From: Gammaproteobacteria bacterium
GTDB lineage: Bacteria; Pseudomonadota; Gammaproteobacteria; Pseudomonadales; Pseudohongiellaceae
DNA: 64,000 nt
Assembly (NCBI GenBank): GCA_030682575.1
Contig: JAUXNX010000016.1
Coordinates: 186,001 to 250,000, forward strand
Direction: 5' to 3'
The position numbers were made by a program, and so were the translations under genes. The notes beneath the pieces were generated by a model. The model was not told the origin of the DNA, made no database searches, and saw only the letters and a list, made by a program, of their open reading frames with translations. Position 1 is the stretch's first letter; each line of letters opens with the position of its first letter. Below, piece by piece: positions 11,990 through 60,979 of the stretch.

Positions 11990-13324
11990 TCATATGTGGA
12001 AACTGTATCGATAGGTTCCGATCAGGGCATTTGTGGTTTCGTCATATACGCTCAAATAGTGCCCACTCACATTCGACTTCGTTATGTATCCCGACTCGAT
12101 AATCAACGCTGCGCCCCCTGCTGTATTGTGGGCATGGACACCTGCACCCGCTGAATTGTTGCTCTGTCCGTACACCCCAGTCATAGATCCTCTGCCGTAT
12201 ACACCTATGGCACTACTCAGCCCGGCAACACCGATCTTATCCGACGGTAAAATGGCCAACAGATTAGCGCGCCCGACGACACCAACATCGTCGCCGCTAC
12301 CGACAACGCCCGTCGGGCCATCGCCCACAACACCTGCGGCGTTTGTCGAAACGCCTTTCACACCTGCAGAATTGACTGATCTGCCAATCACCCCTATGAC
12401 GCTGGAACTGGCGGGCTCGCCAACCAGGGCTGCAGTATCGGTGACACTTAAAATACCCCCAGTGGCCTTGACATGGCCGGTCGTGTTTATGTCTCCTGCG
12501 AATGTACCCGTCGCGGCAGCTAGAGCCCCTGCGAACGTCGCATTACCATTCGATGCCTGAATTGAGAATGTCGCTACGCCGGACGCTGCGCCAATGATCC
12601 CCCACTCAGTAATCGCAATGCCCGTTCCACCGGTCAACGCGCCAGTGGTACTGTTCCACGTGATGCTGCCTACGCGGATTGCACCCGTGTTATTCGGCTG
12701 AATAACGCCTGCGAGGATTGCTGTGCCGGAAACCAGCAGCGTATCGCTGATTGATTTTCCAGATGCTGCATTGCTGGATATCGTACTGAGAGCAACGCCA
12801 CCGACGGTCACAGAGCCAGCGATGATTGATCCTGCTGTGATTGACCCGGAAATGGTCAGGTCAGAGCCATCAAACAAAAACTTCGGAGCAGAGCTGCCAC
12901 CCATCGCCATCGTTCCAGCATTGAGATTCAATGCTGTGCCTGCACTGGCACCCCAGTTGTTCGAGAGGATGGTGCCTGTTCTAATCACATCACCGACAAT
13001 CTGCGTGATCGATATCGGAAGAGCCCCGCTGGTGGTGCCATTCTGCTCTGCGATGATCTGGGCAATTGTCACAGTGCCCACAAGCACAATGTCCTGCGCC
13101 TGAATCAGAACCTCTTCATCCGAGTAAGCGATCAGCGTGCGAATGCCGTTCGCGTTAGCCTTGCCTTCCAGTATGGTTTCGACGTTCGACAGGCGGTCTA
13201 TCAGGCCAGCGATGATCTCGTCAGTGGATGGCAATGCGTCTGGCAGCGGGAAAGGAAGTGTTGGGGATTGCGCAACATCATTGAACAATCCAATCGATGA
13301 TCGGCCCCTGATGATGTTGCTCAT
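11990..13324 (-). CDS. tail tip/fibre protein, repeat-rich
   Basis: A 444-residue protein downstream of gpJ. The N-terminal 90 residues include a helical stretch (TDEIIAGLIDRLSNVETIL). The middle has the phage tip motif ITAGSIIAGSVTVGGVALSTI seen at the end of many gpJ-type proteins (DUF1983-like). Residues about 290-400 contain repeated GVxGxS/GVVGxG units (VGVVGRANLL, GVYGRGSMTGVYGQSNN) suggesting a beta-helix shaft. The final 20 residues resemble those of the secreted cargo protein at 8542. It is likely a structural or adsorption protein. Confidence 0.65.
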   Translation of the reverse strand: MSNIIRGRSSIGLFNDVAQSPTLPFPLPDALPSTDEIIAGLIDRLSNVETILEGKANANGIRTLIAYSDEEVLIQAQDIVLVGTVTIAQIIAEQNGTTSGALPISITQIVGDVIRTGTILSNNWGASAGTALNLNAGTMAMGGSSAPKFLFDGSDLTISGSITAGSIIAGSVTVGGVALSTISSNAASGKSISDTLLVSGTAILAGVIQPNNTGAIRVGSITWNSTTGALTGGTGIAITEWGIIGAASGVATFSIQASNGNATFAGALAAATGTFAGDINTTGHVKATGGILSVTDTAALVGEPASSSVIGVIGRSVNSAGVKGVSTNAAGVVGDGPTGVVGSGDDVGVVGRANLLAILPSDKIGVAGLSSAIGVYGRGSMTGVYGQSNNSAGAGVHAHNTAGGAALIIESGYITKSNVSGHYLSVYDETTNALIGTYRYSFHI

Positions 13325-16300: not shown

Positions 16301-16905
16301 GCACTGCTGACCACATTGGTCGGAAACAGCCTCACGGGCTCGTTGTAGTAATACTCGAAATCAATCTCTTCGAAGCTGCTGACATTGGTGTCTTCAATCA
16401 GGAGGTCTTCGCACTCAAACTCGCCAGCGCCCAGGCAGAACAATTGATACACGTACTGATCGTTGTTGTTGTACACGTGGAACGGCTGAGCGAGCAGGTC
16501 CATCCAGATCCGATGGCGGCCGTAGTGGATCGGCACCGGTGCGCCCAAGCGGGCGGCATTGCTTTGTGCACCGAGGCTATACGCAGGGCTTGTTTCTGCC
16601 TCTGATGGCGTCTTTGGGCGCGGCGTCAGGACAGCTGAAACGACAGACAGAACCGTCAACCCGATCTGTATCCAGGTGAGAGGATCCCCCGGCTTGAGCA
16701 TCACATAGATCTCGTCTGTGGAGACAAGCGCTTCGCTCCACTGCTCTTTCTCCAGCAGCTGGCCATTACGCACAACGATTGCGATGTGCTGCTCACGGCC
16801 TCGGTAGTGACTTTCTGACCACGCGGCAAAGCTCAGACCATCGGGAATGCAGTGATACGCCCGCTCGCGCAGGTCGAAGGCGTTCGGAAACTCAGTGATC
16901 AGCAT
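13321..16905 (-). CDS. tail tip attachment protein J (host specificity)
   Basis: About 1194 residues, matching the usual size of lambda gpJ-type central tail tip proteins. The N-terminus has the ubiquitin-like and membrane-facing start (IAIVVRNGQLLEKEQWS, WIQIGLTVLSVVSAVLTPRP), then the typical GAQSNAARLGAPVPIHYGRHRI. Fibronectin-type repeats occupy roughly residues 720-930. It sits in the canonical order after the NlpC/P60 gene and before fibre genes. ATG 16905 gives the usual MLITEFPN start; ATG 16923 is possible. It is expected to contact the host receptor. Confidence 0.9.
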   Translation of the reverse strand: MLITEFPNAFDLRERAYHCIPDGLSFAAWSESHYRGREQHIAIVVRNGQLLEKEQWSEALVSTDEIYVMLKPGDPLTWIQIGLTVLSVVSAVLTPRPKTPSEAETSPAYSLGAQSNAARLGAPVPIHYGRHRIWMDLLAQPFHVYNNNDQYVYQLFCLGAGEFECEDLLIEDTNVSSFEEIDFEYYYNEPVRLFPTNVVSSAEPASQELSEIFTGPFVASASNTTANRLEVDIVWESGLFRARSDGDTDQATTSLICEYREIATDSNGDPLGDWETLFSETITDARRTPLRITRGAEVDPGRYEVRLRRGEAGQNGTKLFTRCVWEGLRAYLEDDAATYAGLTVLAVRARATGNLNSNSQRRFNVVATRKLPIWDGDEWSAPTATSSIAWALADIVRAEYGAERADSKIDLDRLLTLDAVWENRGDEFNYRFDTTLTLWEALKVAARAGRAYPIMNNSVISFVRTAAQAAPATLFNRNNLRNFKAEYALLNEESDDSVLAEFIDPTSGWVTNQVLCQPVGSSALRPKRVPYRGVTDRNQAFREGVYDAACALKQRKVCRFETELEGYIPNRGDMVIIVNEDFRQDQGGEIVAVSGTTLTTSEPLTFGVGSYAIRLRKPDGTVVGPHIVTAGSTPYQCVLNSPLSWTPETGGAAVRTLYQIGVTGSTLVEWIVQEIRPRGDNVVELVCVAEVGAVHTADEATPPPDNTPAPIASDADAPVIRALLVENTANPAILYIAWSPAPGATSYVLERSLDEGATWQTWATTTNTHLEMPAPIGALELRVAGIGRAKGPWKYWAGTVGEYIINSPTALSLTAELALSSSGDYVTNLVFSFTAPADDVHVKSFEAQYRLARHADWKPLYNALETRWEWQTGEIGQHQVRVRTVYVQGEVFSDWAETSLTNLGTYTAIAAIGLNEPIDPKLFISTNREKATADIRITAGYEYDAAAVPDRFVLFYSAADTPNAFEIGSDTGTKLYIKSVGIAGLFTLPVAAGSTLKRVRYTDVAGTADIDLSGMWWMSIESSINGITQYFKVAESSSSELVMPQGEELPFVPAPGDTIHIAELDYGDSRLPEFKLLWVDGEVIRHSGIKYDGQYYLQVEERGAEGSTQANQSNKTGHYYPALGPLTNAIEIMAAEFVEDESGEFVYSGTIPVVIPSNMTWASVTCCLVRRATSGETTQYVRSNIIPLTVAGPA

Positions 16906-17290
16906 AGCGATAGTACTGAACATGCTGAAAGTTCATGCGCTTGAGCCCGCCGCGATCGTTGCACAGCACACCGGCCGGAGTTGCATGCAAGACCTTGCCG
17001 CCATCGACATCGAGCCAGACACCGACGTGATACGCCTCGCCTGCCCTTCTCATCACCACGGCATCGAATTGCTGAGGACGCCATACCTCACGCCAATCGC
17101 CAGACAGTATCTGGCCCTGCACCGCCGCATTGATGCGCGCCAGATGCCCTTCCATGTTGTCCATCCTGGGCAGTTCGATCCCACCCTGGTGTTTGCACAC
17201 GTGCCAGAGCAGTCCGTAACAGTCGAAAGAATCCGGGCCGTAGGAGTCGTGCTCGAACGGCTTCTGCATATACTCGAGTATCCAGTTCAA
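16892..17290 (-). CDS. NlpC/P60-type tail assembly peptidase (gpK-like)
   Basis: A 132-residue protein with the papain-like core of NlpC/P60 proteins: catalytic Cys in SFDCYGLLW (residue about 24) and His in AYHVGVW (residue about 87). In siphophages this protein, between the DUF1833 and J genes, is a tail-tip cell-wall hydrolase that helps penetration. Its start overlaps the stop of the DUF1833 gene, and its end overlaps the J gene. Confidence 0.88.
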   Translation of the reverse strand: MNWILEYMQKPFEHDSYGPDSFDCYGLLWHVCKHQGGIELPRMDNMEGHLARINAAVQGQILSGDWREVWRPQQFDAVVMRRAGEAYHVGVWLDVDGGKVLHATPAGVLCNDRGGLKRMNFQHVQYYRYADH

Positions 17291-47326: not shown

Positions 47327-47402
47327 TGGTAGCGGGGGCAGGATTTGAACCTGCGACCTCCGGGTTATGAGCCCGGCGAGCTACCAACTGCTCCACCCCA
47401 CG
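47327..47402 (-). tRNA. initiator-type tRNA-Met (CAU)
   Basis: The complement folds as a 76-nt tRNA: acceptor CGTGGGG against CCCCGCT, D stem GAGC/GCTC, anticodon stem CCGGG/CCCGG around CTCATAA, T stem GCAGG/CCTGC, and encoded CCA. It has initiator features: a first-pair mismatch (C1 against T72), three G:C pairs next to the anticodon loop, and A11:T24. It sits inside the prophage, between the replication and immunity genes, on the leftward transcript. Confidence 0.9.
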
Positions 47403-47931: not shown

Positions 47932-48138
47932 TTATGCTGCAGCTGTGTCACTTGAGCGCTGTTCGTACAGAACAGGGTCGTATACCAACGCACCATTCGT
48001 CAGTCGCTCAAGCCTCATGGCCTGGGCCTCTGGAATGATGTCGCCCCACTGAGATATCGCTCCCTTGCTCAGCTTCAGAGCCTTGGCGACAAGCACCTGC
48101 TTGCCCGCGAAATGTTCGATGACCTTGTCTTTGCGCAT
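47932..48138 (-). CDS. Cro-like repressor
   Basis: A 68-residue protein. VLVAKALKLSKGAISQWGDIIPEAQAMRLERLTNGAL is the compact helix-turn-helix of phage Cro proteins, with the usual aromatic end YDPVLYEQ. It is transcribed leftward, back-to-back with the CI-type repressor, with the operators at 48162 and 48209 between them. It should repress the maintenance promoter and favour lytic growth. Confidence 0.88.
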   Translation of the reverse strand: MRKDKVIEHFAGKQVLVAKALKLSKGAISQWGDIIPEAQAMRLERLTNGALVYDPVLYEQRSSDTAAA

Positions 48139-48161
48139 GATGACCCTCTAAGTTTCGGAAA

Positions 48162-48177
48162 GTTTAGCGCAGTAAAC
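48162..48177. promoter_or_regulatory. phage operator
   Basis: GTTTAGCGCAGTAAAC, one base off the 16-bp palindrome GTTTAG-N4-CTAAAC that recurs at 48209 and 49803. It lies 23 bp upstream of cro, at the expected place for the leftward early promoter. Confidence 0.8.
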
Positions 48178-48208
48178 ATGAGCGGTAAAGCTCAATAAAC
48201 ATATAAAA

Positions 48209-48224
48209 GTTTAGAATGCTAAAC
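48209..48224. promoter_or_regulatory. phage operator overlapping the repressor start
   Basis: GTTTAGAATGCTAAAC, a full-match half-site palindrome, ends one base before ATG 48225 of the repressor gene. It contains TAGAAT (48212-48217), a good -10 placed so that transcription would begin at the ATG itself. So the repressor may control its own leaderless transcript. Confidence 0.8.
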
Positions 48225-48863
48225 ATGAACACATCGCACAAACTTAAAGACCGAATGAAAGAGCTGGGAATAAAGCCCGTTGATCTCGCGCGCGCTATAG
48301 GTGCGAGCCGGTCATCGTTGAGCCAGTGGTTGAATAGTGACGTGGAGCCCAGCGCGAAATTCATCCCTGCGCTGTGCCGCGAATTGCAGGTGTCCCCAGA
48401 GTGGATCGTTGAAACGGATTACTCAGTCAGATCGCCTGCGCCGCCTCCATACCACACCGGACCAACCCTTCGGCAAGTACCGCTGATCTCTTGGGTGGCG
48501 GCTGGCAACTGGTGCGAGTCTCCAGATCCATATCTGCCAGGAGATGCCGAGGAGTGGGTGCCATGCCCGTTCGATTTCGGGGTGGGCTCTTTTTGTCTGA
48601 GGGTAGTTGGAGATAGTATGTTTCCGGAATATCGCGAAGGGGAACTGATCCTGGTGGACCCAACAATTGAGGCCGCTCACAACGACGACGTGATTGCGAG
48701 AACGCCCGAAAGCAAGTACACGTTTAAACGTTTGCAGATCACTCCAGATGGCAGCTACTTGCTCGCACTCAACCCGGATCACCCAGAAAGAAAACTGAAG
48801 TTTCCGCCAGACAGCCACATCTGCGGAGTAATCACAGGCTCTTGGCAGCGCAGGAAAAGATGA
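48225..48863 (+). CDS. CI-type repressor with S24 autocleavage domain
   Basis: A 212-residue protein. The N-terminal helix-turn-helix spans residues about 5-60 (DLARAIGASRSSLSQWLNSD). The C-terminal LexA/S24 domain has the cleavage site in SWVAAGNW (Ala-Gly), the serine in VVGDSMFPEYREGE and the lysine in YTFKRLQ. It should keep the prophage silent and be inactivated by RecA after DNA damage. The first in-frame ATG (48216) is inside the operator; ATG 48225 is preferred. No ribosome site is visible, which fits a leaderless message. Confidence 0.92.
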   Translation: MNTSHKLKDRMKELGIKPVDLARAIGASRSSLSQWLNSDVEPSAKFIPALCRELQVSPEWIVETDYSVRSPAPPPYHTGPTLRQVPLISWVAAGNWCESPDPYLPGDAEEWVPCPFDFGVGSFCLRVVGDSMFPEYREGELILVDPTIEAAHNDDVIARTPESKYTFKRLQITPDGSYLLALNPDHPERKLKFPPDSHICGVITGSWQRRKR

Positions 48864-48906
48864 TCGCCGGAGCAAATTTCGTAATGCACATATGGAGGGA
48901 TAAATA

Positions 48907-49743
48907 GTGAAAAAAGCCATTCTGATGGCCGCCACATTACTGGCCTCTCACGCTCAATCGGCAGAACTTTCCGAAATTGCCGCTTGCGCGGCGCTGCAAA
49001 ACGATATCGCCAGGCTTCAGTGTTTTGATGGTATGGCGGCTTCTGCCGGGGCCGCCCCGATCGTGACAACTACCGGTGGCACCGGAGGCGAGGCCGGAAT
49101 GTGGACGACCCGGACCACAATAAATCCCATGGACGATACCACCACGATCGCGCTGGCATTACAGGCAGACACCGGCACAAACCGCTGGGGCGCCCCTATA
49201 ACACTTATAGCTCGTTGCCAAAGCAAGGAGGTGGATGTGTACATCGATTGGGGTGAGTATTTGGGTGACGACCCGACGCCTACTATAAGGCTCGATGGCG
49301 GCCAGGCATCGGAACAGGCGTGGAATATCTCAACTGACAACACATCAACGTTTAATCCAAACGGCAAACGGTTTCTCGCGCGTCTCGCAGAAGCGAGCCG
49401 ACTGGTTGCCCAGATCACCCCGTACAGCGAATCTCCAAGAACGGCTGTATTTACCCTCGCGGGCATAGAAAAGGCAGTCGAGCCCATATGGGCAGAATGC
49501 GGGGCCCCGGCGGTTCGCACGCCGAGTGCGACTAGAACAGTAAGGATTGCTGCAGGATCGCTCTTGTGCGAAAGCCCAGAGCAACATCAAGCTGCCATGA
49601 CCGCAGGCAACTATCGATCCCCTGGTTGCTTCGCTTTGGAAAATGAAAACAGAACGTTTGAGCAGGTCGGCGAAGATGATGGCCTGATTCAGGTGCGCAG
49701 GTTTGGCCAGACCCACTACACTTCCTCCGGCGGTCTTGAATAA
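48907..49743 (+). CDS. secreted VasI-like protein, lysogen-expressed cargo candidate
   Basis: A 278-residue protein from GTG 48907 after GGAGGG. A signal peptide (KKAILMAATLLASHAQSA) precedes CAALQNDIARLQCFD and a beta-rich domain (WTTRTTINPMDDTTTIALALQA, PITLIARCQSKEVDVYIDW, YLGDDPTPTIRLDGG). This matches the VasI-type proteins near type VI secretion genes. Its place directly after the repressor, same strand, is typical of genes expressed in the lysogen. A role in superinfection exclusion or host change is inference. Confidence 0.6.
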   Translation: MKKAILMAATLLASHAQSAELSEIAACAALQNDIARLQCFDGMAASAGAAPIVTTTGGTGGEAGMWTTRTTINPMDDTTTIALALQADTGTNRWGAPITLIARCQSKEVDVYIDWGEYLGDDPTPTIRLDGGQASEQAWNISTDNTSTFNPNGKRFLARLAEASRLVAQITPYSESPRTAVFTLAGIEKAVEPIWAECGAPAVRTPSATRTVRIAAGSLLCESPEQHQAAMTAGNYRSPGCFALENENRTFEQVGEDDGLIQVRRFGQTHYTSSGGLE

Positions 49744-49768
49744 AGCCCGACAATCAATCGGGTGATTT

Positions 49769-49784
49769 GTTTATTTATATAAAC
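49769..49784. promoter_or_regulatory. operator-like palindrome
   Basis: GTTTATTTATATAAAC keeps the outer GTTTA/TAAAC arms of the repressor operator but with A/T replacing the inner G/C. It lies 18 bp left of the full-match operator at 49803, as paired operators in lambda-type promoters. Confidence 0.6.
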
Positions 49785-49791
49785 TTTCCCA

Positions 49792-49819
49792 TTGACACTA
49801 TTGTTTAGCCTGCTAAACT
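49792..49819 (+). promoter_or_regulatory. repressor-controlled rightward early promoter with operator
   Basis: TTGACA at 49792-49797 (-35) is followed after 16 bases by TAAACT at 49814-49819 (-10). Operator GTTTAGCCTGCTAAAC (49803-49818) covers the spacer and -10, so repressor binding would exclude RNA polymerase. The promoter drives the plus-strand operon starting at 49852. Confidence 0.75.
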
Positions 49820-49851
49820 CTCTTCCGTAATCACACGGCGGAGAACAAGTT

Positions 49852-50274
49852 GTGTCAAACCTCGAAATCATCGGCTTACCCCTGCGGGAAGGTCAGGCTC
49901 TTGAGCTCACAGCTCAAGGCCTGACGACAAAGTTTGCCGCCAAGAAAATGGCGTGCAGCCCGCGCAACGTTGAAGCGTTGCTGAGCGCATGCATGAATCG
50001 CGTTGGCGCGAATAACCGAGCGCACCTCATTGCAAAAGCCTTCGAGCGAGGTTTTTTGCGCGTCGGTATGGCTGTCCTGATCTGCTCCACCCTCTTTTCC
50101 TTGGCTCCAACTCCCGCTTCGGCAGATGACGACCAGGTCATGGTGCGCCGTTCTCGCAGAGTGTCATCCAGAAGGCTCAAGGCTTTGCCGGCAGCCTCTG
50201 ATCTTGAATCCGTAGACCTTTCCCGCCCCCACGATCTGCTGTGGGACGGAGCGCTGTTCGTGGTGTACCTGTGA
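49852..50274 (+). CDS. LuxR-type HTH protein with membrane segment
   Basis: A 140-residue protein starting at GTG 49852 with GGAGAA upstream. Residues about 8-70 are a LuxR/GerE helix-turn-helix (REGQALELTAQGLTTKFAAKKMACSPRNVEALLSACMNRVG). It is followed by a hydrophobic segment (VGMAVLICSTLFSLAPTPASA) and a basic stretch. First gene of the early operon. A membrane-tethered regulator is unusual; alternatively the hydrophobic part is buried. Confidence 0.7.
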   Translation: MSNLEIIGLPLREGQALELTAQGLTTKFAAKKMACSPRNVEALLSACMNRVGANNRAHLIAKAFERGFLRVGMAVLICSTLFSLAPTPASADDDQVMVRRSRRVSSRRLKALPAASDLESVDLSRPHDLLWDGALFVVYL

Positions 50275-50390
50275 AGCCATCTGCCCTTCAAGTTCTCGCA
50301 TCCGCTGCACTCACGGTTCTTGAGACCCTCGGAGTGCTGGCCGTCCTGATAGGACTCTACACGCTTTTTGAAATGGCGGTGATGCGATGA
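50271..50390 (+). CDS. 39-residue membrane peptide
   Basis: GTG 50271 overlaps the preceding stop (GTGA) and the frame ends at 50390, overlapping the next ATG (ATGA). The product is a single transmembrane helix (VLETLGVLAVLIGLYTLF) with short tails. Coupled overlaps on both sides argue that it is translated. Confidence 0.55.
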   Translation: MKPSALQVLASAALTVLETLGVLAVLIGLYTLFEMAVMR

Positions 50391-50659
50391 ATGCACTTCA
50401 ATCCCGAATTCTGGATGTCCCCGCACCAGCGCAAGTCTGGACCTACACCGATCTGACAGAGACGGCAGAGAAGCAGATCGAGCGCCTGTTGGAGATCGCT
50501 GCCGAGAAACAGCGCCAGGGCGACCCGCTCCTGGCCAAGATCTATCAGGACTTCGCGCAGGGCGCATTCGTTCTGTGGAAGACACTCACCAAGGGCCGCT
50601 TCGATGATGTCGATCATGACCGCATTGAGAGAATGCTGGCCAGGAAGGTGATGCCATGA
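50387..50659 (+). CDS. hypothetical early phage protein
   Basis: A 90-residue helical protein (YTDLTETAEKQIERLLEIAAEKQRQGDPLLAKIYQDFAQGAF). No known domain. It starts on an ATGA overlap and is in the early operon. Acidic and basic residues alternate as in coiled-coils. Confidence 0.5.
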   Translation: MNALQSRILDVPAPAQVWTYTDLTETAEKQIERLLEIAAEKQRQGDPLLAKIYQDFAQGAFVLWKTLTKGRFDDVDHDRIERMLARKVMP

Positions 50660-50823
50660 ACCAAAACTACAAGGTCATCTTCGACCACAACGGCAGGCCA
50701 CAGACTTTCGTCACGCAGTCCAATTGCCCAGAGGGAGCCGAGGAGCGTTTTCGATCCTCGCCCTACGGGTCATTCCCCATCACCAGTATTGAAGTCCTGC
50801 CCAAAAGAGGAGCCAGAGCATGA
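50656..50823 (+). CDS. 55-residue early phage protein
   Basis: ATG 50656 overlaps the previous stop, and the stop 50821-50823 overlaps the next ATG. The product begins MNQNYKVIFDHNGRPQTFVT and looks like a small beta-hairpin fold. The 4-bp overlaps at both ends support it as real. Confidence 0.55.
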   Translation: MNQNYKVIFDHNGRPQTFVTQSNCPEGAEERFRSSPYGSFPITSIEVLPKRGARA

Positions 50824-51056
50824 GCAACGTGATTCCGTTTCGCACTTCGCAGGCCGTGGTTGCAGTTCCGCGCGCCAAGCGCATCAAACTCGGCTGGTAC
50901 GTCGTTCGGCTTCCGGGCCTTGCCTGGTATCGGCGCAGCCGCGAGCTCGCCGAGGAGGCCTGCAGAGGCTGGCTGATGCAGCAGCGCAACAGCACAGAGG
51001 TTCAGGGTTACAACAACGCGGGAGTCATGGCTCCCACATACCAGGAGAAAGCGTAA
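50820..51056 (+). CDS. hypothetical early phage protein
   Basis: A 78-residue basic protein (VPRAKRIKLGWYVVRLPGLAWYRRSRELAEEACRGWLMQQ). Possibly nucleic-acid binding; no domain recognised. Starts at an ATGA overlap; its stop shares one base with the next ATG (TAATG). Confidence 0.5.
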   Translation: MSNVIPFRTSQAVVAVPRAKRIKLGWYVVRLPGLAWYRRSRELAEEACRGWLMQQRNSTEVQGYNNAGVMAPTYQEKA

Positions 51057-51463
51057 TGCCAGTGACTGTCGATATATCCGATGACGGTTTTCTCAATCTT
51101 CTGCGATGCCAGAACGGCGGCGCACTGATTGAGGAGCTTGACCGTGAATTGATCAAGGGGGTGGGTGCCGTGCTGGATCACGGCGGTGCCAGCAAGATAA
51201 CCCTGCAGATCAGCCTCAAGAGAATCCGTGACCTGGACAGCGCGATGACCATTCATCACGACGTCAAAGTGTCGCACCCCAAAGAGCCCCGCCCAGCAAA
51301 GGCGATGTTCGTTACTCAGGGCAACGGGCTTGCAGATCAGAAAGCCGACCAGATGCGCTTGAGCCTTTCCGAATCCGCAACCCAACGGGCATCCGTGCTG
51401 AGTGCAGAAACAAGCTCTGGCAAGGTCTCCCGCCTACCTTCAGCAGGAGATAGAACAGCATGA
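51056..51463 (+). CDS. hypothetical early phage protein
   Basis: A 135-residue protein from ATG 51056, the only start that fits the operon spacing; the open frame extends upstream through two other genes. MPVTVDISDDGFLNLLRCQNGGALIEELDRELIKGVGAVLDHGG is followed by a strand-rich part. Often such proteins precede DUF2303 genes, as here. Function unknown. Confidence 0.55.
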   Translation: MPVTVDISDDGFLNLLRCQNGGALIEELDRELIKGVGAVLDHGGASKITLQISLKRIRDLDSAMTIHHDVKVSHPKEPRPAKAMFVTQGNGLADQKADQMRLSLSESATQRASVLSAETSSGKVSRLPSAGDRTA

Positions 51464-52305
51464 CTCAGACATCAGATCGCGGAGACTTTCAGTCCGCATT
51501 CGAGGCCGGCCAGGCCACACAGATCGTAACTGCCGACATCGAGGGCGTGCAGCACATTCTCGTGCCTCCCGGCTGCACGCTACAGTCGATGGAGCGTCTC
51601 ATGGATGCTCCGATCCGCATCAAGGCACACCCGTCGTTCAATGACGTTGCTGGCTTTGCTGAGTACGTCAAGGAGTTCGCCGAGGAAGGCTCTCGCGTCT
51701 TCGTTGATGACGCTCAGTACCGCTTCACCACCGTGTTTGATTGTCACGCCAAGGACCAGCCAGCCTGGGGCGATCACAGCGCCAGCATCACCATGGGACT
51801 TGCTCCCGAGTGGAAGCGCTTCCGAGAGTTCGACAGCAAGGCCATGAGCCCGAAGGTCTTCGCGGAATTTCTGGAAGACAACGTGGCATACGTGGACACA
51901 GCGCGCAGCGGCATGTCCGGAGCTGATGTGCTCACGATGGCCCAGACCTTCAAGGTGGACATCAAGGGCGAACTGGACGTGGAGGAGAGTTTGAGCCAGG
52001 GCCTGCGAAAGCTGGTCATCAAGGACGACTCCACGCTCAGGGGAAAGAACGTGCAGGGGAAAGAACTGTCATTCCCCGAGAAGCTGCACTTCAACCTGCG
52101 CATCTTCAAAAACCACAGCGCCTATCCGATCGAAGTATTCCTGCGCACCCGCACCACGAAAGAACAAGTGGTGTTCCTGATCAAGATCCCAGATCCGGAA
52201 GGATTGCTGGAAGAGGCTTTCGATCGAGTGATCGAGGACGTGTGCAATGCGACTGGCCTGCCAACACTCAAGGGCAGCTTCGAAGGTCCATCCCACAAGA
52301 AATAG
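51460..52305 (+). CDS. DUF2303 (YfdQ-like) protein
   Basis: A 281-residue protein with ILVPPGCTLQSMERLMDAPIRIKAHPSFNDVAGFAEYVKEFA, FDCHAKDQPAWGDHSASITM and a C-terminal RTTKEQVVFLIKIPDPEGLLEEAFDRVIEDV. These are the hallmarks of DUF2303, found in many prophages between early genes. Its molecular role is not known. Confidence 0.88.
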   Translation: MTQTSDRGDFQSAFEAGQATQIVTADIEGVQHILVPPGCTLQSMERLMDAPIRIKAHPSFNDVAGFAEYVKEFAEEGSRVFVDDAQYRFTTVFDCHAKDQPAWGDHSASITMGLAPEWKRFREFDSKAMSPKVFAEFLEDNVAYVDTARSGMSGADVLTMAQTFKVDIKGELDVEESLSQGLRKLVIKDDSTLRGKNVQGKELSFPEKLHFNLRIFKNHSAYPIEVFLRTRTTKEQVVFLIKIPDPEGLLEEAFDRVIEDVCNATGLPTLKGSFEGPSHKK

Positions 52306-52359
52306 CCCATCCGAGCGCCTGCAGCAGATTCCGGCTGCAGGCCAGGTGGCAAGGATTGA

Positions 52360-52989
52360 ATGATGCTGATTGTGTTTGAAGGCATAGACGGCTCTGGCAA
52401 GAGCTCGGTACTCGCCGCGGTAAAGCAGCGCCTGGCTGATCTGGGTGTGGAGTGTGAAGCCACGTCCGAGTTCGGCAGACCAGAGGACTGGAGCGTGGAT
52501 GCCAGAGAGAATCTGATGGCCTCACGCAACGCGCAGGAGGAACTGCACTACGTTATGGGCACTCGAGTGGTTCACCACGAGAGGATCCTCGGGCCCCTGC
52601 TGGCTCTGAATCACATCGTGCTGATGGATCGCTTTCTCATGAGCACCATGGCTTACCAGTCCAGCCTGACAATCTCTGAGGATTTCCTGCTGCAGCGTCA
52701 CATCGGCCTCGAGCTGCCAGTGCCGGATATCACATTCCTGATTGATGTTGCCTCTGAAACAGCGAAGCAGCGAATCGCGCACAGGCAGGACCAGAGCAAG
52801 ATCGATCAGCGGCCAGTGGCGTTCTTCGACGAGGCTCGGGGCCGTTACCGCCGCGCAACTCAGAAGCTCCTGTCTGTCGGATGGGACGTGCAGATCATCA
52901 ACGGGGAAGTCCCTCTGGCAATAATTGCCGAGAACGTCGCTACCCGTGTCATGGCCAAAATCAAAGCCACCGCGGGCGTCGCGGCATAA
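52360..52989 (+). CDS. thymidylate kinase-like nucleotide kinase
   Basis: A 209-residue P-loop kinase: Walker A FEGIDGSGKSSVLAAVKQRL (residues about 6-25), DR motif VLMDRFLMSTMAYQ and a lid-like RIAHRQDQSKIDQRP. It resembles dTMP kinases and would raise dTTP during phage replication. AAGGATTG precedes the start; ATG 52363 is an alternative. Confidence 0.82.
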   Translation: MMLIVFEGIDGSGKSSVLAAVKQRLADLGVECEATSEFGRPEDWSVDARENLMASRNAQEELHYVMGTRVVHHERILGPLLALNHIVLMDRFLMSTMAYQSSLTISEDFLLQRHIGLELPVPDITFLIDVASETAKQRIAHRQDQSKIDQRPVAFFDEARGRYRRATQKLLSVGWDVQIINGEVPLAIIAENVATRVMAKIKATAGVAA

Positions 52990-53017
52990 ACCACAACAAT
53001 CTCCCTCGGAGGCAACA

Positions 53018-53389
53018 ATGGACACAGCAACAGCAGTAGCAGCACCACAGATCAACACTCAGGTAGTCGGCACTCTTGAATGGTCTAACACCCTCCTGGA
53101 TGGCCGTCGCGTCTTGCGCAAGGAGGCAGAGGCTGCAGTGGCAGAGCTCGGCGATGGATGGCGCCTGCCGACTGTGGATGAACTCCAGACGATTCTGGAC
53201 CGCAGCCGCTACAACCCTGCCATCGACACCGAGAAGTTTCCAGACACGAAATCCACCTGGTACTGGACGAGCTCACCATGCGCTTGGGATGCCAGTGCCC
53301 GTTGGGTCGTCTATTTCAGCTACGGCAGTGTCCTCGACAGCTACGACTACGGCGACGCCTGCGTCCGGGCGTGTCGCGCCAGTCAGTAA
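53018..53389 (+). CDS. DGR target protein 1, C-type-lectin-fold (DUF1566-like)
   Basis: A 123-residue protein from ATG 53018 (GGAGG upstream). After 18 residues the DUF1566-type motif set follows: WSNTLLDGRRVLRKEAEAAVAELGDGWRLPTVDELQ, PDTKSTWYWTSSPCAWDASARWVVYF. The last 32 residues are the variable repeat. The fold is the one used by many DGR variable proteins, where varied residues line a ligand-binding face. It is a minimal domain: no signal peptide, no tail-binding part. It is expressed in the early operon directly before a close paralogue. Confidence 0.88.
   Translation: MDTATAVAAPQINTQVVGTLEWSNTLLDGRRVLRKEAEAAVAELGDGWRLPTVDELQTILDRSRYNPAIDTEKFPDTKSTWYWTSSPCAWDASARWVVYFSYGSVLDSYDYGDACVRACRASQ
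53294..53388 (+). repeat. DGR variable repeat VR1
   Basis: 95 bp aligning without gaps to the template repeat at 54298-54392. Thirteen positions differ, each where the template has A (changes to G, T and C); one further difference, C for G at 53384, is at the 3' end. The constant GCCTGCGTCCGGGCGTGTCG followed by CGCCAGT stretch just before it is the likely initiation-of-mutagenic-homing region. Confidence 0.93.
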
Positions 53390-53437
53390 CTCTTTGATTC
53401 TTTGACAATAACCCAGCAACACACTCAGGAGAACAAC

Positions 53438-53779
53438 ATGGGCGATCAGACCCCAGCACCACAACTCGAATGGTCCAGCACGCTGCTGGATGGAAAGGAC
53501 GTGACTCTCGCAGAGGCTGAGGCCGCAGTCGCCGCTCTCGGGGAAGGCTGGCGTTTGCCAACAGTGAAGGAGCTGTTCTCCCTCGTTGATCATGGCAGAC
53601 ACGCGCCAGCGATCGACACGGAGAAATTCCCCGATACCAAATCGGACTGGTACTGGACCGGCACTCCATGCAGCTGGAACGCCAATGCCCGTTGGGTCGT
53701 CTATTTCGGCGGCGGCAGTGTCAGCGGCTACTACGTCAGCAGCTACGCCTGCGTCCGGGCGTGTCGCGCCAGTCAGTAA
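53438..53779 (+). CDS. DGR target protein 2, C-type-lectin-fold (DUF1566-like)
   Basis: A 113-residue protein from ATG 53438 (CAGGAG upstream). It is paralogous to target 1 over its whole length (WSSTLLDGKDVTLAEAEAAVAALGEGWRLPTVKELF, DTKSDWYWTGTPCSWNANARWVVYF) but lacks most of the N-terminal extension. The C-terminal variable face differs from target 1 in nine of twelve template-AAY/GAC codons, showing independent diversification. Its coding sequence ends with the same ACVRACRASQ. Confidence 0.88.
   Translation: MGDQTPAPQLEWSSTLLDGKDVTLAEAEAAVAALGEGWRLPTVKELFSLVDHGRHAPAIDTEKFPDTKSDWYWTGTPCSWNANARWVVYFGGGSVSGYYVSSYACVRACRASQ
53684..53778 (+). repeat. DGR variable repeat VR2
   Basis: 95 bp, gap-free match to the template at 54298-54392. 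Fourteen differences, all at template adenines, plus the same G-to-C difference near the 3' end at 53774 seen in VR1. The first AAT is unchanged. Variable and template repeats are in the same reading frame. Confidence 0.93.
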
Positions 53780-53803
53780 TTTTTGCCCTTTGAGTCTTTA
53801 ATC

Positions 53804-54244
53804 ATGAAGAAAGACCAGCAACCAGAAATCGCGAAGATGGCCGAACGGCTACTTGCAGAGCTTGAGCGAGTGGTCCGAGGTTTCGCGCGGTATCACAAAT
53901 ACACTCTGGGCACTGACATTCGCAATCAGGCCATGACGGTGGTGCGCCATTGCCACCGTGCATGGAGGGATCGCGCGCGCCAGGAGTATTGGAAGTCGGA
54001 GTTGGTCTGGGCAATTGATGAACTGAAACTGAGCCTGCAGATCGGCTCTCAGATACATGCGTTCAAAAGCTTCTCCCAGTTCGAGTCGCTGATTCGCACT
54101 GCCGAAGAACTCGGTCGGTGTGCGGGCGGCTGGAAGCGTGGAACTTACCTTAAGGGCCAGAATTCGACGAGCGAAGCCTCACCGGAGCGCGCCCAGATAC
54201 TGAGTGGCCGTGCCGCCTCTGTAGCAATGGGGGCCAACCTATGA
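53804..54244 (+). CDS. avd: DGR accessory variability determinant (Avd-like)
   Basis: A 146-residue protein from ATG 53804 (no clear ribosome site, so maybe coupled to target 2). IAKMAERLLAELERVVRGFARYHKYTLGTDIRNQAMTVVRHCHRAW and WAIDELKLSLQIGSQIHAF follow the pattern of Avd four-helix-bundle proteins (family fingerprint FxxxHKYTLG). Avd forms a pentamer that binds the reverse transcriptase and template RNA in known systems. Its stop overlaps the reverse transcriptase ATG (ATGA). Confidence 0.87.
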   Translation: MKKDQQPEIAKMAERLLAELERVVRGFARYHKYTLGTDIRNQAMTVVRHCHRAWRDRARQEYWKSELVWAIDELKLSLQIGSQIHAFKSFSQFESLIRTAEELGRCAGGWKRGTYLKGQNSTSEASPERAQILSGRAASVAMGANL

Positions 54245-55596
54245 CGAAGCCATGCTACCTACAAGGATGCCTGCCAGAGTCGAAAGAGCACGGCAAGAAT
54301 GCCCGTTGGGTCGTCAATTTCAACAACGGCAATGTCAACGACAACAACGACAACAACAACGCCTGCGTCCGGGCGTGTCGCGCCAGTGAGTATCAAGGTA
54401 ACGTCACACTTAGAGAGCTTTACAATGCCTGGCGCATGGCCAGGCGTGGGAAGAAGCCCAGCAAGAATCAGCTGAGCTTCGACGCCAACTGGAGCGATGG
54501 CCTGCTGGAGATTCAGCGCCAGATCAACTCCGGCACCTGGGAGCCACGGCGCAGCGCCTGCTTCATCGCGGCCAGACCGAAGGCCCGGGAAATACACGCT
54601 CCGGATTTCGCTGACAGAGTTGTGCACCACTGGCTTGTGCCTCAGTTGGAGGCAATCTGGGAGCCCCTGTTCATCTTCGACAGCTACGCGAACCGCAAGG
54701 GTAAGGGTAGCCACGCTGCTGTGCAGAGACTGCAACAGTTCGTGCGTCAGGTCGACAGTGGCCAGGGCGGCGGGTGGTATCTGCAGCTGGACATCCACAA
54801 CTTCTTCAACTCGATCCACAGGCATTCGCTCTGGGTCGACATGAAACCAAAGCTGATGCGCGCTGGCGTGTCTCCCGAAGTCATGCGCACCACGCATGCC
54901 CTGCTTCGGCGCTCTCCTCTGCATGCCGGTGTCGCGTACCACGGCACTGCGGCAGAGCGAGAAATGGTTCCACCGCACAAGCGACTGGAGAATGCCGCCC
55001 GAGGCTGCGGGCTCCCGATAGGCAACCTCAGTTCCCAATTTCTTGCCAACGTGCAACTGGACAAGTTGGATCAGTTCGTCAAGCACACGCTCAAGGCGAA
55101 GCGATATCTGCGTTACGTGGATGACTTCGTCCTGGTGCATCACGACCGCGAGCAGCTCGCCGCCTGGCTGATCGAGATCGAGAAGTTTCTCGCCCGAGAA
55201 CTGCAGCTGAAGCTCAAGCCAGACATCCGGCTCCGACCACTGAAGGACGGGATCGACTTCCTCGGATACATCGTCAGACCTACTCACACGCTCGTTCGCC
55301 GCCGTGTCGTTGTGCATGCGCGCAGCACTCTTGCGGCGTGGGAGCAGCAACACGTACACGCCTCCCACATACAGGCAACGCCGCAGGAGCTGCGGGCGAT
55401 CCAGTCCACGGCAGCCAGCTACGTTGGGCACATGAAGCATGCCGACAGTACTCGCCTTCAGCGTGGCATCAGAAGGCGTTTCCGCTGGCTACCTGCAGCC
55501 ACCCGCCGCCGTCACTTTGATTACAGGCTGGAGGATCAGCAGGTTCGAATACCGCTTTCGAACAGTCAACGCTCACGCCTTGAGGTCAGAACATGA
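54241..55596 (+). CDS. DGR reverse transcriptase
   Basis: A 451-residue protein. Residues about 20-50 are the translated template repeat; the conserved RT begins with TLRELYNAWRMARRGKKPSK. Catalytic motifs are present: DIHNFFNSI (first Asp), GLPIGNLSSQFLANVQLDKLDQF, and RYVDDFVLVHHD (active-site YVDD). Then KDGIDFLGYIVRPTHTLVRRR follows. ATG 54241 overlaps the Avd stop; the next Met (54436) would remove part of the conserved start, so translation through the repeat is likely. It copies template RNA with adenine errors for transfer into the variable repeats. Confidence 0.93.
   Translation: MTKPCYLQGCLPESKEHGKNARWVVNFNNGNVNDNNDNNNACVRACRASEYQGNVTLRELYNAWRMARRGKKPSKNQLSFDANWSDGLLEIQRQINSGTWEPRRSACFIAARPKAREIHAPDFADRVVHHWLVPQLEAIWEPLFIFDSYANRKGKGSHAAVQRLQQFVRQVDSGQGGGWYLQLDIHNFFNSIHRHSLWVDMKPKLMRAGVSPEVMRTTHALLRRSPLHAGVAYHGTAAEREMVPPHKRLENAARGCGLPIGNLSSQFLANVQLDKLDQFVKHTLKAKRYLRYVDDFVLVHHDREQLAAWLIEIEKFLARELQLKLKPDIRLRPLKDGIDFLGYIVRPTHTLVRRRVVVHARSTLAAWEQQHVHASHIQATPQELRAIQSTAASYVGHMKHADSTRLQRGIRRRFRWLPAATRRRHFDYRLEDQQVRIPLSNSQRSRLEVRT
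54298..54392 (+). repeat. DGR template repeat (TR)
   Basis: 95 bp, rich in AAC codons (AACAACGGC, AACGACAACAACGAC then AACAACAAC), matching VR1 and VR2 except at adenines and at 54388 (G here, C in both variable repeats). It starts at AATGCCCGTTGGG and ends at GAGTA. The TR lies wholly inside the reverse transcriptase frame, 57 bp after its ATG, and is read in the same frame as the variable repeats. Confidence 0.93.
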
Positions 55597-55796
55597 AAAA
55601 CATTCTGCAGAGCAGATCAAGACGGTATGGATTCGACGGCTGGTCCTTGAAGCACCGAGATAGCGCCAAGCCATGGAGCAATGCAGTTTGCACAACCCGG
55701 GAAGAAGCGCGCGAAATCAAAGCGCAGGAGTTGCCAGAAATGCGAAGGAAACTGCAAGTGGTAAAGGTTCGGGTTGTCGTTGAGGTGGTGTCATGA
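55593..55796 (+). CDS. small phage protein after the DGR
   Basis: A 67-residue basic protein (SRRYGFDGWSLKHRDSAKPWSNAVCTTREEAREIKAQ, ending VKVRVVVEVVS). ATG overlaps the reverse transcriptase stop (ATGA). No recognised domain. May or may not belong to the retroelement. Confidence 0.5.
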   Translation: MKNILQSRSRRYGFDGWSLKHRDSAKPWSNAVCTTREEAREIKAQELPEMRRKLQVVKVRVVVEVVS

Positions 55797-56404
55797 CTGA
55801 TCACATCACTGCATACCCGTTGACCTGGCCAAACGGCTGGAAGCGCAGCAAGGTTCGCCAGCATTCGCAGTTCAGCAAGAAGACCGAGCGCACAAGGCGC
55901 GACGTCACGCTCACCGATGCCGTCACCTTTGTTCTCGACGAACTCAGACGCATGGAAGTGCGGGACTGGAACGTCATTATTTCCACCAATGTGGAACTTC
56001 GTCTGGATGGATTGCCGCGCGGGGGCAAGCCCGCCCCTGTCGACACCGGAGTGTCAGTCTGGTGGAAGGATGGAAACAAGCAGCTCGTTATTGCCATCGA
56101 CAAGTATTACCGGGTTGCAGACAACCTATACGCCATAGGAAAAACCATCGAAGCGATGCGCGGCATTGATCGCTGGGGCTCTGGCGAAATCCTTGAGCGC
56201 ACCTTCACAGGATTCCAAGCTCTTCCAAATCCCGACGCCGTGAACTGGCGTGACGTGCTCGACTACCGAGGTAATGATCTGGCTGAGTGCAAGGTTGCAT
56301 ATCGCCGTGCGATTGGCAATGCGCATCCGGACAGAGGCGGTAATGACGCTCAGGCAGCGATAGTCAACAAGGCGTGGGAAATGGCCCAAGGAGAGTTGTC
56401 ATGA
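55793..56404 (+). CDS. J-domain-like phage protein
   Basis: A 203-residue protein. Most of it is an alpha/beta domain of unknown type (FVLDELRRMEVRDWNVIISTNVELRLDG, SVWWKDGNKQLVIAIDKYYRV). The C-terminal 40 residues carry a J-domain-like AYRRAIGNAHPDRGGNDAQAAIVNKAWE with the HPD tripeptide. It probably recruits DnaK. Phage proteins of this layout are common in early operons. Confidence 0.75.
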   Translation: MTDHITAYPLTWPNGWKRSKVRQHSQFSKKTERTRRDVTLTDAVTFVLDELRRMEVRDWNVIISTNVELRLDGLPRGGKPAPVDTGVSVWWKDGNKQLVIAIDKYYRVADNLYAIGKTIEAMRGIDRWGSGEILERTFTGFQALPNPDAVNWRDVLDYRGNDLAECKVAYRRAIGNAHPDRGGNDAQAAIVNKAWEMAQGELS

Positions 56405-56631
56405 AGAACAAACTGACAGACCTGAACAATCATCTGTTTGCGCAGCTTGAGCGTCTCGGCGATGAGAGCCTCGATGGGGAGAAGCTGGAACAAGAGATCA
56501 ACAGGTCAAAGGCGATCGCTGGTGTTGCCGATCGCGTGATCCACAACGCTTCCTTGGTGCTAAAAGCCCAGCAAGCTTTCCACCAGGGAGAGTCACAGGC
56601 TCACCCCATGCTCTCCCAGGATCAAAAGTAA
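56401..56631 (+). CDS. hypothetical phage protein
   Basis: A 76-residue protein from ATG 56401 (ATGA overlap). LTDLNNHLFAQLERLGDESLDGEKLEQEINRSKAIAGVADRVI resembles small helical phage proteins that follow J-domain genes. Function unknown. Confidence 0.6.
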   Translation: MKNKLTDLNNHLFAQLERLGDESLDGEKLEQEINRSKAIAGVADRVIHNASLVLKAQQAFHQGESQAHPMLSQDQK

Positions 56632-59556: not shown

Positions 59557-59801
59557 ATGAGAACTCTAAGTTCACGCCAGCCACACTCTTCGCCAAGAAG
59601 AAACTCAGGCAGACCAGGCTCGATAAAGGCTGGACTGTCAATCACGCTGCACAGCAAATAGGAATAGAGCGGAAGGTTCTGGAAGACGTCGAGGCCACGC
59701 GCTACTACGGCTGTCATCTGTCACTGGATCGAATGCTCCAGATTTGTAAGGCATATGGATTGTCGCTGAATGATTTGGTCAAGCCTGGGAGAGCGCGGTA
59801 A
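59553..59801 (+). CDS. XRE-type helix-turn-helix regulator
   Basis: An 82-residue protein. LFAKKKLRQTRLDKGWTVNHAAQQIGIERKVLEDVEATRYYG is a Xre/Cro-type helix-turn-helix, with LSLDRMLQICKAYGLSLNDLV completing the fold. A plausible regulator of the early operon or of the nucleic-acid genes after it. Confidence 0.75.
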   Translation: MNENSKFTPATLFAKKKLRQTRLDKGWTVNHAAQQIGIERKVLEDVEATRYYGCHLSLDRMLQICKAYGLSLNDLVKPGRAR

Positions 59802-60979
59802 TGGCTGATCAAACTGGCATCGAGTGGTGCGACTCTACGCACAACGAATGGATAGGCTGTACCCGCGTGTCGCCTGCCTGCGATCACTGCTATGCCGCTG
59901 TGAGCACGCCCGCACGAACTCATGGCATTGAATGGGGCGCCGGGAAGCCCAGAACCCGCACGAAAATTGCGAACAGAATGCGTCCACGACGCTGGAACAG
60001 AAAAACTTTCTTCCAGTGCGACGACTGCAGATGGCGAGGAGATAACCCCGCATCGGAGCAGTGTGAGAGCACGGATGATCCCGTGTGTCCGAAGTGCGCC
60101 GGGACGGTTAGCGAAGCCCGTCGCCGCGTCTTCTGCTCTTCCCTGTCCGACTGGCTCGACAACGAAGTGCCCATAGAGTGGCTGGTGGACCTCTTGGACA
60201 CGATCAGGGTGACGCCGAGCCTTGACTGGCTGTTGCTTACAAAGCGTATTGGAAACTGGCGACAGCGCATACACGCCTCGCTTGCTTACATTGAACAGAG
60301 CCGCACTGGTGATACGGCGAACGCTCTCAGATGTTTTGCTATATCAAAATGGCTTCATGACTGGCTCGAAGGCAACGCTCCAGCAAATGTCCAGCTAGGC
60401 ATTACGGTAATCAATCAGCCTGAAGTTGACCGAGACGTGGGAAGGCTTCTCGCTGTTCCAGCTCGCATTCACTTTCTGAGCGTCGAGCCAATGTTGGGGC
60501 CAATCGAATTGCCTTGGGCATTTCCTGATATTCGTACTTCTTGCTGTCATGTCTGCGGCTTCCGCACTAACGCAGTGGGCGGCTTATGTCCTAACGATGG
60601 GCATGCGCTCCGCGGCGATATCGGGATTAATTGGATCATCTGCGGCGGCGAGTCCGGGTACAGCGCTCGGCCCATGCACTTAGATTGGGTGAAGTCTTTG
60701 CGCGATCAGTGCGTAGCTGCTGGCGTCCCTTTTCTTTTCAAACAGTGGGGCGAGTGGCTGCCAAGCGACGAGTTCACTCCTGAGCTGAATGCCGAGGATG
60801 GTAACTGGCCACACCACGGAAACAGCAAGTGGCCATACCTCGATTATCACGACGGCGATCAGGAATGGCGCGAGTGGCCGGCGCCCGGAGAAGAATCAGT
60901 CTGGCGGGTCGGGAAAAAGCGCGCTGGGCGAAGACTAGATGGCCGCACATGGGATCAGTACCCGGAGGTGCCGGCATGA
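59801..60979 (+). CDS. DUF5131 (phage Gp37/Gp68-type) protein
   Basis: A 392-residue protein. The N-terminal GIEWCDSTHNEWIGCTRVSPACDHCYA cysteine pattern (metal or Fe-S-like), DWLLLTKRIGNWRQRI, LSVEPMLGPIELPW and NWIICGGESGYSARPMHLDWVKSLRDQC are diagnostic of DUF5131. Homologues are common in phages and near radical-SAM-like proteins; the function is not known. An extra four-cysteine insert (CDDCRWRG...CPKC) is present at residues about 70-110. Confidence 0.88.
   Translation: MADQTGIEWCDSTHNEWIGCTRVSPACDHCYAAVSTPARTHGIEWGAGKPRTRTKIANRMRPRRWNRKTFFQCDDCRWRGDNPASEQCESTDDPVCPKCAGTVSEARRRVFCSSLSDWLDNEVPIEWLVDLLDTIRVTPSLDWLLLTKRIGNWRQRIHASLAYIEQSRTGDTANALRCFAISKWLHDWLEGNAPANVQLGITVINQPEVDRDVGRLLAVPARIHFLSVEPMLGPIELPWAFPDIRTSCCHVCGFRTNAVGGLCPNDGHALRGDIGINWIICGGESGYSARPMHLDWVKSLRDQCVAAGVPFLFKQWGEWLPSDEFTPELNAEDGNWPHHGNSKWPYLDYHDGDQEWREWPAPGEESVWRVGKKRAGRRLDGRTWDQYPEVPA

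Follow-up and report, generated by a model that had tools for sequence, protein, structure and literature searches.

Where does reverse transcription begin in a diversity-generating retroelement (DGR) whose template repeat (TR) lies inside the gene of its own reverse transcriptase (RT)? The question is raised by a DGR at positions 53,018 to 55,596 of a 64,000-nucleotide (nt) stretch of a Gammaproteobacteria bacterium of the Pseudohongiellaceae (assembly GCA_030682575.1, contig JAUXNX010000016.1, positions 186,001 to 250,000), hereafter the window, whose coordinates are used throughout. Knowledge of the DGR mechanism comes mostly from Bordetella phage BPP-1, where the RNA that starts reverse transcription follows the template. 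On sequence comparison, the template RNA of the window element seems to be built the opposite way round from this textbook example. The reading developed below, to which we give a probability of roughly 0.78, is that the element is a complete DGR, that its clade keeps the TR in an RT frame coupled to avd, that a folded RNA precedes the TR, that an arm of this RNA pairs with the end of the TR, and that complementary DNA (cDNA) would be primed from this arm.

Template repeat and reverse transcriptase frame

The window element is a complete DGR, with one TR, two variable repeats (VR1 and VR2), avd and a DGR-type RT, all on the + strand. Target genes 1 (53018..53389, 123 amino acids (aa)) and 2 (53438..53779, 113 aa) each encode hardly more than one free-standing Lcl_C/DUF1566 domain (PF07603, above the Pfam cut-off with E 1.8e-20 and 2.2e-21, respectively); the second gave no PDB sequence match at E<=0.1. 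The available part of one report gives DUF1566 a C-type-lectin-like fold (PMC6642488), and in both targets a VR closes a gene with such a predicted domain, the arrangement by which DGRs are recognised. Avd (53804..54244, 146 aa) matches PHROG 3206, 'Avd protein of DGR' (E 9.9e-18), and stays under the Pfam and NCBIfam cut-offs. The RT (54241..55596, 451 aa) matches PHROG 1423 (E 1.5e-98), and among solved structures the DGR RT of BPP-1, 8ub7, comes closest to it by sequence (E 3.2e-32) and by fold (E 3.8e-21); the window RT carries the motifs YVDD and IGNLSSQ, which we take to be marks of RTs of the DGR kind. A first-pass annotation of this DNA had proposed a complete DGR with two tandem targets; all its parts are now identified, and PHROG, PDB sequence and PDB fold agree on the family of the RT.

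The TR (54298..54392, in the bounds of the first-pass annotation) aligns without gaps over 95 base pairs (bp) with VR1 (53294..53388) and VR2 (53684..53778). VR1 differs from it at 14 positions, 13 of them adenines (hypergeometric p = 7e-8 against random placing of the differences along the TR, where 27 of 95 bases are A), and VR2 at 15, 14 of them adenines (p = 1e-8). The sole non-adenine difference, common to both VRs, is a G-to-C change at TR position 91, hereafter the discriminator (G at 54388 in the TR, C at 53384 in VR1 and at 53774 in VR2). The two VRs differ from each other at 14 positions, every one a TR adenine. The gap-free repeats, the 13 and 14 adenine differences and the lone 3' exception are exactly what had been claimed before. 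No further TR or VR copy occurs in the genome (3.73 megabases, 33 contigs) beyond these three, two other matches to the repeat being of 19 and 24 bases (E 0.165).

Relatives were collected from IMG/VR and GTDB, and counts refer to the loci fetched (the best 80 of 112 and the best 80 of 110). The clade set holds 102 loci with a TR and an RT at least 53% identical to that of the window, reduced to 82 unique loci when those with identical translated leader and TR are counted once. L001-L003, L006-L010 and L012 were dropped as duplicates or as the source genome itself before the frame count described below, and L054 and L078 are without a TR since their contigs begin there. The 82 unique relatives yield 166 TR/VR pairs, with differences at 2379 of 3951 TR adenines vs 15 of 14,023 other positions, a ratio that is partly built in because the repeat finder penalises non-adenine mismatches and ends its alignments at the 3' discriminator. 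The substitutions comprise 1315 A>G, 736 A>T and 328 A>C. A less biased test used 17 comparisons of orthologous VRs between phages whose RT genes share at least 97% identity. Here, 77 of 390 TR-adenine positions differ vs none of 1529 others, with no difference in the TR (0/1919) and 26 in the 200 nt before the VRs (26/3400). All 77 differences fall in seven comparisons that lack independence, L055 and L056 resembling each other. In the remaining ten the RT genes are identical and no VR difference occurs; these are probably duplicates of one genome. The first-pass claim of adenine-directed VR variation is thereby borne out in close relatives, as an indirect sign of mutagenic retrohoming. That the VRs reflect ordinary divergence or gene conversion has next to no chance of being right, being contradicted by the adenine-only differences and having no supporting point that we could find.

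The first-pass annotation also placed the template beside avd and the RT gene. More precisely, it sits wholly within the RT open reading frame (ORF; 54241-55596), as codons 20-50. The earlier interpretation was right yet incomplete, having missed this coding frame and the structured RNA 5' of the TR. The RT frame is open through the TR in all 102 clade loci, and the RT start overlaps the avd stop as ATGA (54241-54244 in the window) in 80 of the 82 unique loci. In L019, L021 and L022 the overlap of avd stop and RT start is kept (ATGA; TGATG in L022) at a site about 33 nt further downstream, and in L064, L070, L081, L097 and L166 the TR is read in a different RT frame that is still open, giving a threonine-rich RT N-terminus instead of the usual asparagine-rich one. 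In an AlphaFold2 model of the RT, residues 1-52 have a confidence score (pLDDT) under 50, with 296 of the 451 residues at 90 or more, and the TR-coded segment looks like a flexible tail.

This predicted disorder would also suit an RT made from an internal start, with the TR untranslated and its open frame a by-product of the VR frame and of high G+C. Such a start is possible in 74 of the 82 loci, which have an in-frame ATG, GTG or TTG between the TR start and the RT core, and this counts against translation through the TR. We nevertheless regard an internal start as quite unlikely: the window and seven other loci have no such codon, the TR frame is open in five loci where it is not the frame of the VR, and the RT start codon is tied to avd in nearly all loci.

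Overlap of a TR with the RT ORF was already known (PMC3521204), and in most cases the TR is intergenic (PMC8144416), according to the accessible parts of these articles. The window belongs to DiGReF group 3, in which the TR lies inside the RT ORF or across one of its ends. As in the window, the overlapping TRs of PMC3521204 lie in the 5' part of the ORF; that survey rests on annotated ORFs, and its available text reports neither conserved coding through the TR nor an RNA fold. Among more distant loci with a TR, a stop closes the RT frame before the TR start in 33 of 38, so full embedding is mostly a trait of the clade.

A fold upstream of the template repeat

For the RNA work, near-identical RT genes were removed, leaving 78 loci, 62 of which enter alignment A3. 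Relative to expectation, the identity of codons for the same amino acid reaches 1.40, 2.06 and 1.76 in the final three ten-codon blocks of avd (77 loci), vs 0.97-1.21 in earlier blocks. It is 1.49, 1.52 and 1.36 times expectation over the RT leader and TR (78 loci), and past the TR 1.27 directly after, a value not clearly raised, and 0.91-1.26 further on. Over the region that begins 96 nt ahead of the RT start codon and ends with RT codon 19, RNAalifold gave an energy of -26.95 for the 78 loci vs -0.13 (standard deviation (sd) 0.29) with shuffled columns; it returned 0.00 for the TR, for the stretch after it and for six other RT stretches. In alignment A3 the 22 pairs of the fold are paired in 96.9% of cells, with 222 two-sided changes vs 47.3 (sd 7.8) shuffled and a covariation of 0.558 vs 0.179 (sd 0.010) shuffled and at most 0.125 with slid partners.

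On the evidence of this covariation, a fold over the end of avd and the RT leader, up to the TR (54142..54300), is conserved in the clade. The window sequence is able to form 20 of the 22 consensus pairs. A hairpin (54155..54193) made of helix 1 (54155-54157/54191-54193) and helix 2 (54163-54167/54182-54186) is followed by helix 3 (54207-54213/54288-54294, spanning 54207..54294), which surrounds the RT start codon and the G-rich stretch preceding it and encloses helices 4 (54217-54218/54231-54232) and 5 (54249-54255/54269-54275). Rfam had no match at E<=5 in 52500-56500 and matched only transfer RNAs (tRNAs) in 11 related loci, and no fold 5' of the TR is described in the available portions of the DGR literature consulted. 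Two other accounts of the region were rejected. Conservation of the leader as protein only does not fit its third codon positions, which vary 1.42 times as much as the others vs 1.6-2.6 after the TR, nor the codon of Q16, CAA in 62 of 62 rows having Q. For a structured spacer within the opening codons of the RT, the alifold energy was 0.00 to -0.01.

A model of this 5' RNA, R1, matches 41 of 42 clade loci not used in its building, many of which are close kin of its rows (one match is cut by a contig end). At E<=1 it also reaches 20 of the 57 distant loci, 15 of them with E<0.01, and in 13 of 19 distant loci with a TR the match ends at most 12 nt from the independently found TR start. Two strong and three weak matches occur in 390 genomes of the order, the source genome included.

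Since helix 3 encloses the RT start and the ATGA overlap is so widely kept, the fold might be a regulator of translation only, coupling RT to avd with no role in reverse transcription. We consider this very unlikely. In L118 the RNA and TR lie together about 750 nt before the RT core, and in L019, L021 and L022 the RNA element stayed in place when the start moved. Moreover, an arm of this RNA pairs with the 3' boundary of the TR and fits the VR at the discriminator.

The arm, the discriminator and a proposed start of reverse transcription

A scan over all column pairs for long-range helices found one that spans the TR, between GATACT (54196-54201) and AGTATC at the TR 3' boundary (54389..54394). 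It is perfect in 75 of 78 loci vs 31.3 with permuted partners (at most 44 in 1000 permutations), its variable pair occurs as A-T, C-G, T-A, T-G and G-C, and the minimum-energy fold of the window includes it. The 5' strand belongs to an arm, GATACTGA (54196..54203), whose next base, G54202, stands opposite the discriminator. At this lone fixed TR/VR difference the arm base is complementary to the VR, not to the TR. The discriminator change, GTGAG to GTCAG, occurs in 163 of the 166 TR/VR pairs; in the other three the gapless alignment ends earlier and the VR likewise reads GTCAG. A helix of at least 8 bp through the discriminator forms in 81 of 82 loci with the VR base and in 19 with the TR base, vs 27.7 (maximum 36) with shuffled flanks. 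Similarly, a chimera of VR base and TR flank pairs over at least 8 bp with the 5' flank in 76 of 78 loci vs 17.4 shuffled, and does not do so with the 3' flank (25 vs 20.0 shuffled).

The same preference is found in 41 distant loci, where scores average 21.9 for the VR base vs 17.0 for the TR base and 16.8 (sd 0.6, maximum 18.5) for flanks taken from other loci, and where helices of at least 8 bp number 34 vs 20 with the TR base and 20.7 (maximum 30) with the flanks of others. Matched changes are seen in L144 and L147, VR ACAGTG occurring with arm CACTGT and VR ACAATG with arm CATTGT, and in loci from ruminant samples, which have the arm GTTTGCGGT. In 15 of the 41, the discriminator changes from A in the TR to C in the VR beside a recognisable arm, where a random change would favour G. 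The high-scoring loci L164, L156 and L161 are A/T-rich and were not counted as having arms.

These observations invite comparison with BPP-1 (mtd, avd, TR, brt), which shares with the window the order target-avd-TR-RT, Avd and the adenine-specific VR changes. In both, the 3' ends of TR and VR mismatch and a segment of the template RNA is complementary to the VR at the mismatch. In BPP-1, however, the TR lies outside the RT gene and a structured spacer of 144 nt follows it on the 3' side, whereas in the window the TR lies within the RT gene and the fold is 5' of it. The same pipeline applied to 37 BPP-1-like loci gave an energy of 0.00 for the 150 nt upstream of the TR and -27.3 (24 pairs, 122 two-sided changes) from TR end to RT start, vs -42.2 (30 pairs, 158 two-sided changes) upstream and -0.01 downstream in 37 loci of the window clade. 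A spacer of BPP-1 type between TR and RT was not found in the window clade, no covarying fold being present downstream. A model of the BPP-1 spacer, R2, matches six of the seven loci obtained with brt as query (E 0.34 in one case) and has no match at E<=1 in 68 other loci (the window and 67 fetched with its RT).

In the BPP-1-like set, the flank that pairs is the 3' one. The VR scores 18.6 against it vs 14.0 (sd 0.55), with just 9 helices of at least 8 bp vs 5.6, and shows no such pairing to the 5' flank (15.1 vs 14.6). In BPP-1 itself, VR TGACCACCT has its complement in the spacer segment AGGTGGTCA, whose final A is spacer base 56 from the annotated TR end, the reported number of the priming adenine. 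Judged from these sequences, BPP-1 keeps the same rule of complementarity to the discriminator, on the 3' side of the TR. Priming in BPP-1 is by an internal adenine of the spacer, according to the available part of PMC12875486.

Targets of BPP-1 type also have a GC-rich hairpin of 7-10 bp after the VR (PMC3240598, in the part available). No perfect stem of at least 7 bp lies within 70 nt of either window VR, mismatched stems not being scored, and such stems follow 2 of 166 VRs in the clade vs 15 of 56 in BPP-1-like loci; folds of 30 nt after the VR did not differ from those of shuffles. A short T-rich motif without a hairpin, conserved in the clade with the consensus CAGTAATTGGCCTTTTTG, comes after the VR end (53384-53410 and 53774-53800).

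From these comparisons we infer that RT and Avd bind the 5' fold and that the arm is the source of the mark on the VR. The arm-TR helix would be the initiation duplex. By analogy with BPP-1, cDNA would begin beside the discriminator, primed from the 5' side by the arm near A54203, a candidate position that would take the part of the spacer adenine. It would then run through the TR with errors at A, stop at the 5' fold and replace the VR. The arm base, not the TR, would maintain C at the VR discriminator, and therefore the VR would stay a target and the TR would not become one.

Two other roles for these RNA parts were weighed. The 5' fold could serve to stop reverse transcription, with the arm helix merely joining the ends of the template and priming occurring from a nick at the VR or elsewhere. 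The accessible parts of earlier work are in keeping with this, as a motif at the avd end of BPP-1 halts reverse transcription and target priming was proposed before (PMC12875486, PMC3240598). We find it doubtful, as it leaves unexplained why the discriminator base of the arm matches the VR rather than the TR. Alternatively, the arm could be a guide that recognises the VR end and no primer: arm ACTGA is complementary to VR TCAGT, and the matched changes in L144 and L147 would be expected. The helix with the VR has just 5-6 bp, and in 78 clade loci the VR alone pairs with neither flank above shuffled, which makes a guide unlikely.

Priming from the arm remains the reading we prefer, and several results besides the internal start codons weigh against it. 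Arm priming itself is argued by analogy with BPP-1. The folding energy of the window RNA is ordinary (z -0.63). The VR alone scores 15.5 against the 5' flank vs 14.9 (sd 0.34) shuffled, so that only the chimera stands out. A recognisable arm is the top helix in about 20 of the 41 distant loci, where a looser, free helix search was weak (19.1 vs 17.7, sd 0.45), and five of the 19 distant R1 matches lie 88-189 nt from the TR, with one more 39 nt off. Lastly, the upstream side is not bare in BPP-1-like loci, where one covarying 7-bp helix joins the avd end and the spacer (32 two-sided changes).

Spread of the element, host prophage and implications

A tree of 87 RTs sets the BPP-1-like group at a great distance from that of the window. 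Loci with a 5' arm, a label partly judged by eye, occur in several branches of the part without BPP-1. Hosts named by GTDB in the window clade include Stenotrophomonas, Xanthomonas, Pseudoxanthomonas, Lysobacter, Luteimonas, Arenimonas, Dyella, Rhodanobacter and Solimonas. Several relatives of the window element are Stenotrophomonas genomes, and DGRs with several DUF1566 targets per element, as in the window, are known, one of them from Stenotrophomonas sp. SKA14 (PMC6642488), an account whose available text does not mention the position of the TR in the RT gene or a template RNA structure. The window has two adjacent targets only. L016, L019-L021, L027, L032, L039, L046-L048, L097, L103, L106 and others have an additional DUF1566-like target several kilobases (kb) upstream of the cassette, and this distant second or third target carries a VR of the same TR.

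Retrons have the order structured RNA, copied part and RT gene, and the ends of their RNA are joined by a helix. Points of difference are the branch nucleotide of retrons and the window RT, which is nearest to a DGR RT by sequence and fold. We lean slightly towards a broader view, in which an inverted template RNA would be common to a large DGR branch that reaches from Lysobacterales prophages to several further bacterial phyla. The fold and a priming arm would precede the TR, the arm would close the RNA round the TR as in retrons, and the arm, not the TR, would specify the base that marks the VR. In the window clade this RNA would be the avd end, the RT leader and, by way of the TR, a coding part of the RT protein at the same time, the messenger RNA of the enzyme being its own template.

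The host element of the DGR is a siphophage-like prophage. It codes for tail protein J (13321-16923), tape measure, head protein, protease, portal and terminase, for an O-like replication protein, methyltransferases and an antirepressor, and for a CI-like repressor (48216-48863). The DGR lies on the + strand past the repressor, flanked by a thymidylate kinase-like gene and an HNH gene, 36 kb from the J gene. Its targets, small free-standing DUF1566 proteins, are encoded at a distance from the tail genes, whereas the one target of BPP-1 is a tail protein. DUF2303 and thymidylate kinase-like genes (51460-52989) precede it on the same strand, and a DUF5131 gene (59801-60979) follows, also on that strand. 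A tRNA-Met gene (47327-47402, minus strand) stands between the replication genes and the repressor, and in four of 11 relatives searched a tRNA gene lies about 2-4 kb downstream of the RT; these tRNAs are possible attachment sites. At E<=1e-80 the RT was found in no other genome among 137 of the family (source included), as expected of a prophage. A close isolated phage was sought and rejected: RT identity is under 60% in all 108 matching phage records (36.5% in the best covered one), and DNA matches cover 5-7% of the query, with none for 48000-53000.

A 2025 Nature paper on the BPP-1 ribonucleoprotein reportedly finds a requirement for upstream as well as downstream RNA and an RNA duplex in the active site, and it may already include part of the present inferences. 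Relative to the accessible portions of the DGR literature consulted, the 5' fold, the arm-TR helix and the match to the discriminator appear to be new. The element poses a conflict, as one RNA would be both translated through the TR to make the RT and folded as the template. If the reading is true, a conserved, covarying RNA before the template that follows the same target-marking rule would mean that the initiation machinery of DGRs can lie on either side of the template, and it would give a simple sequence rule by which other DGRs could be searched for their initiation site and TR/VR discriminator.

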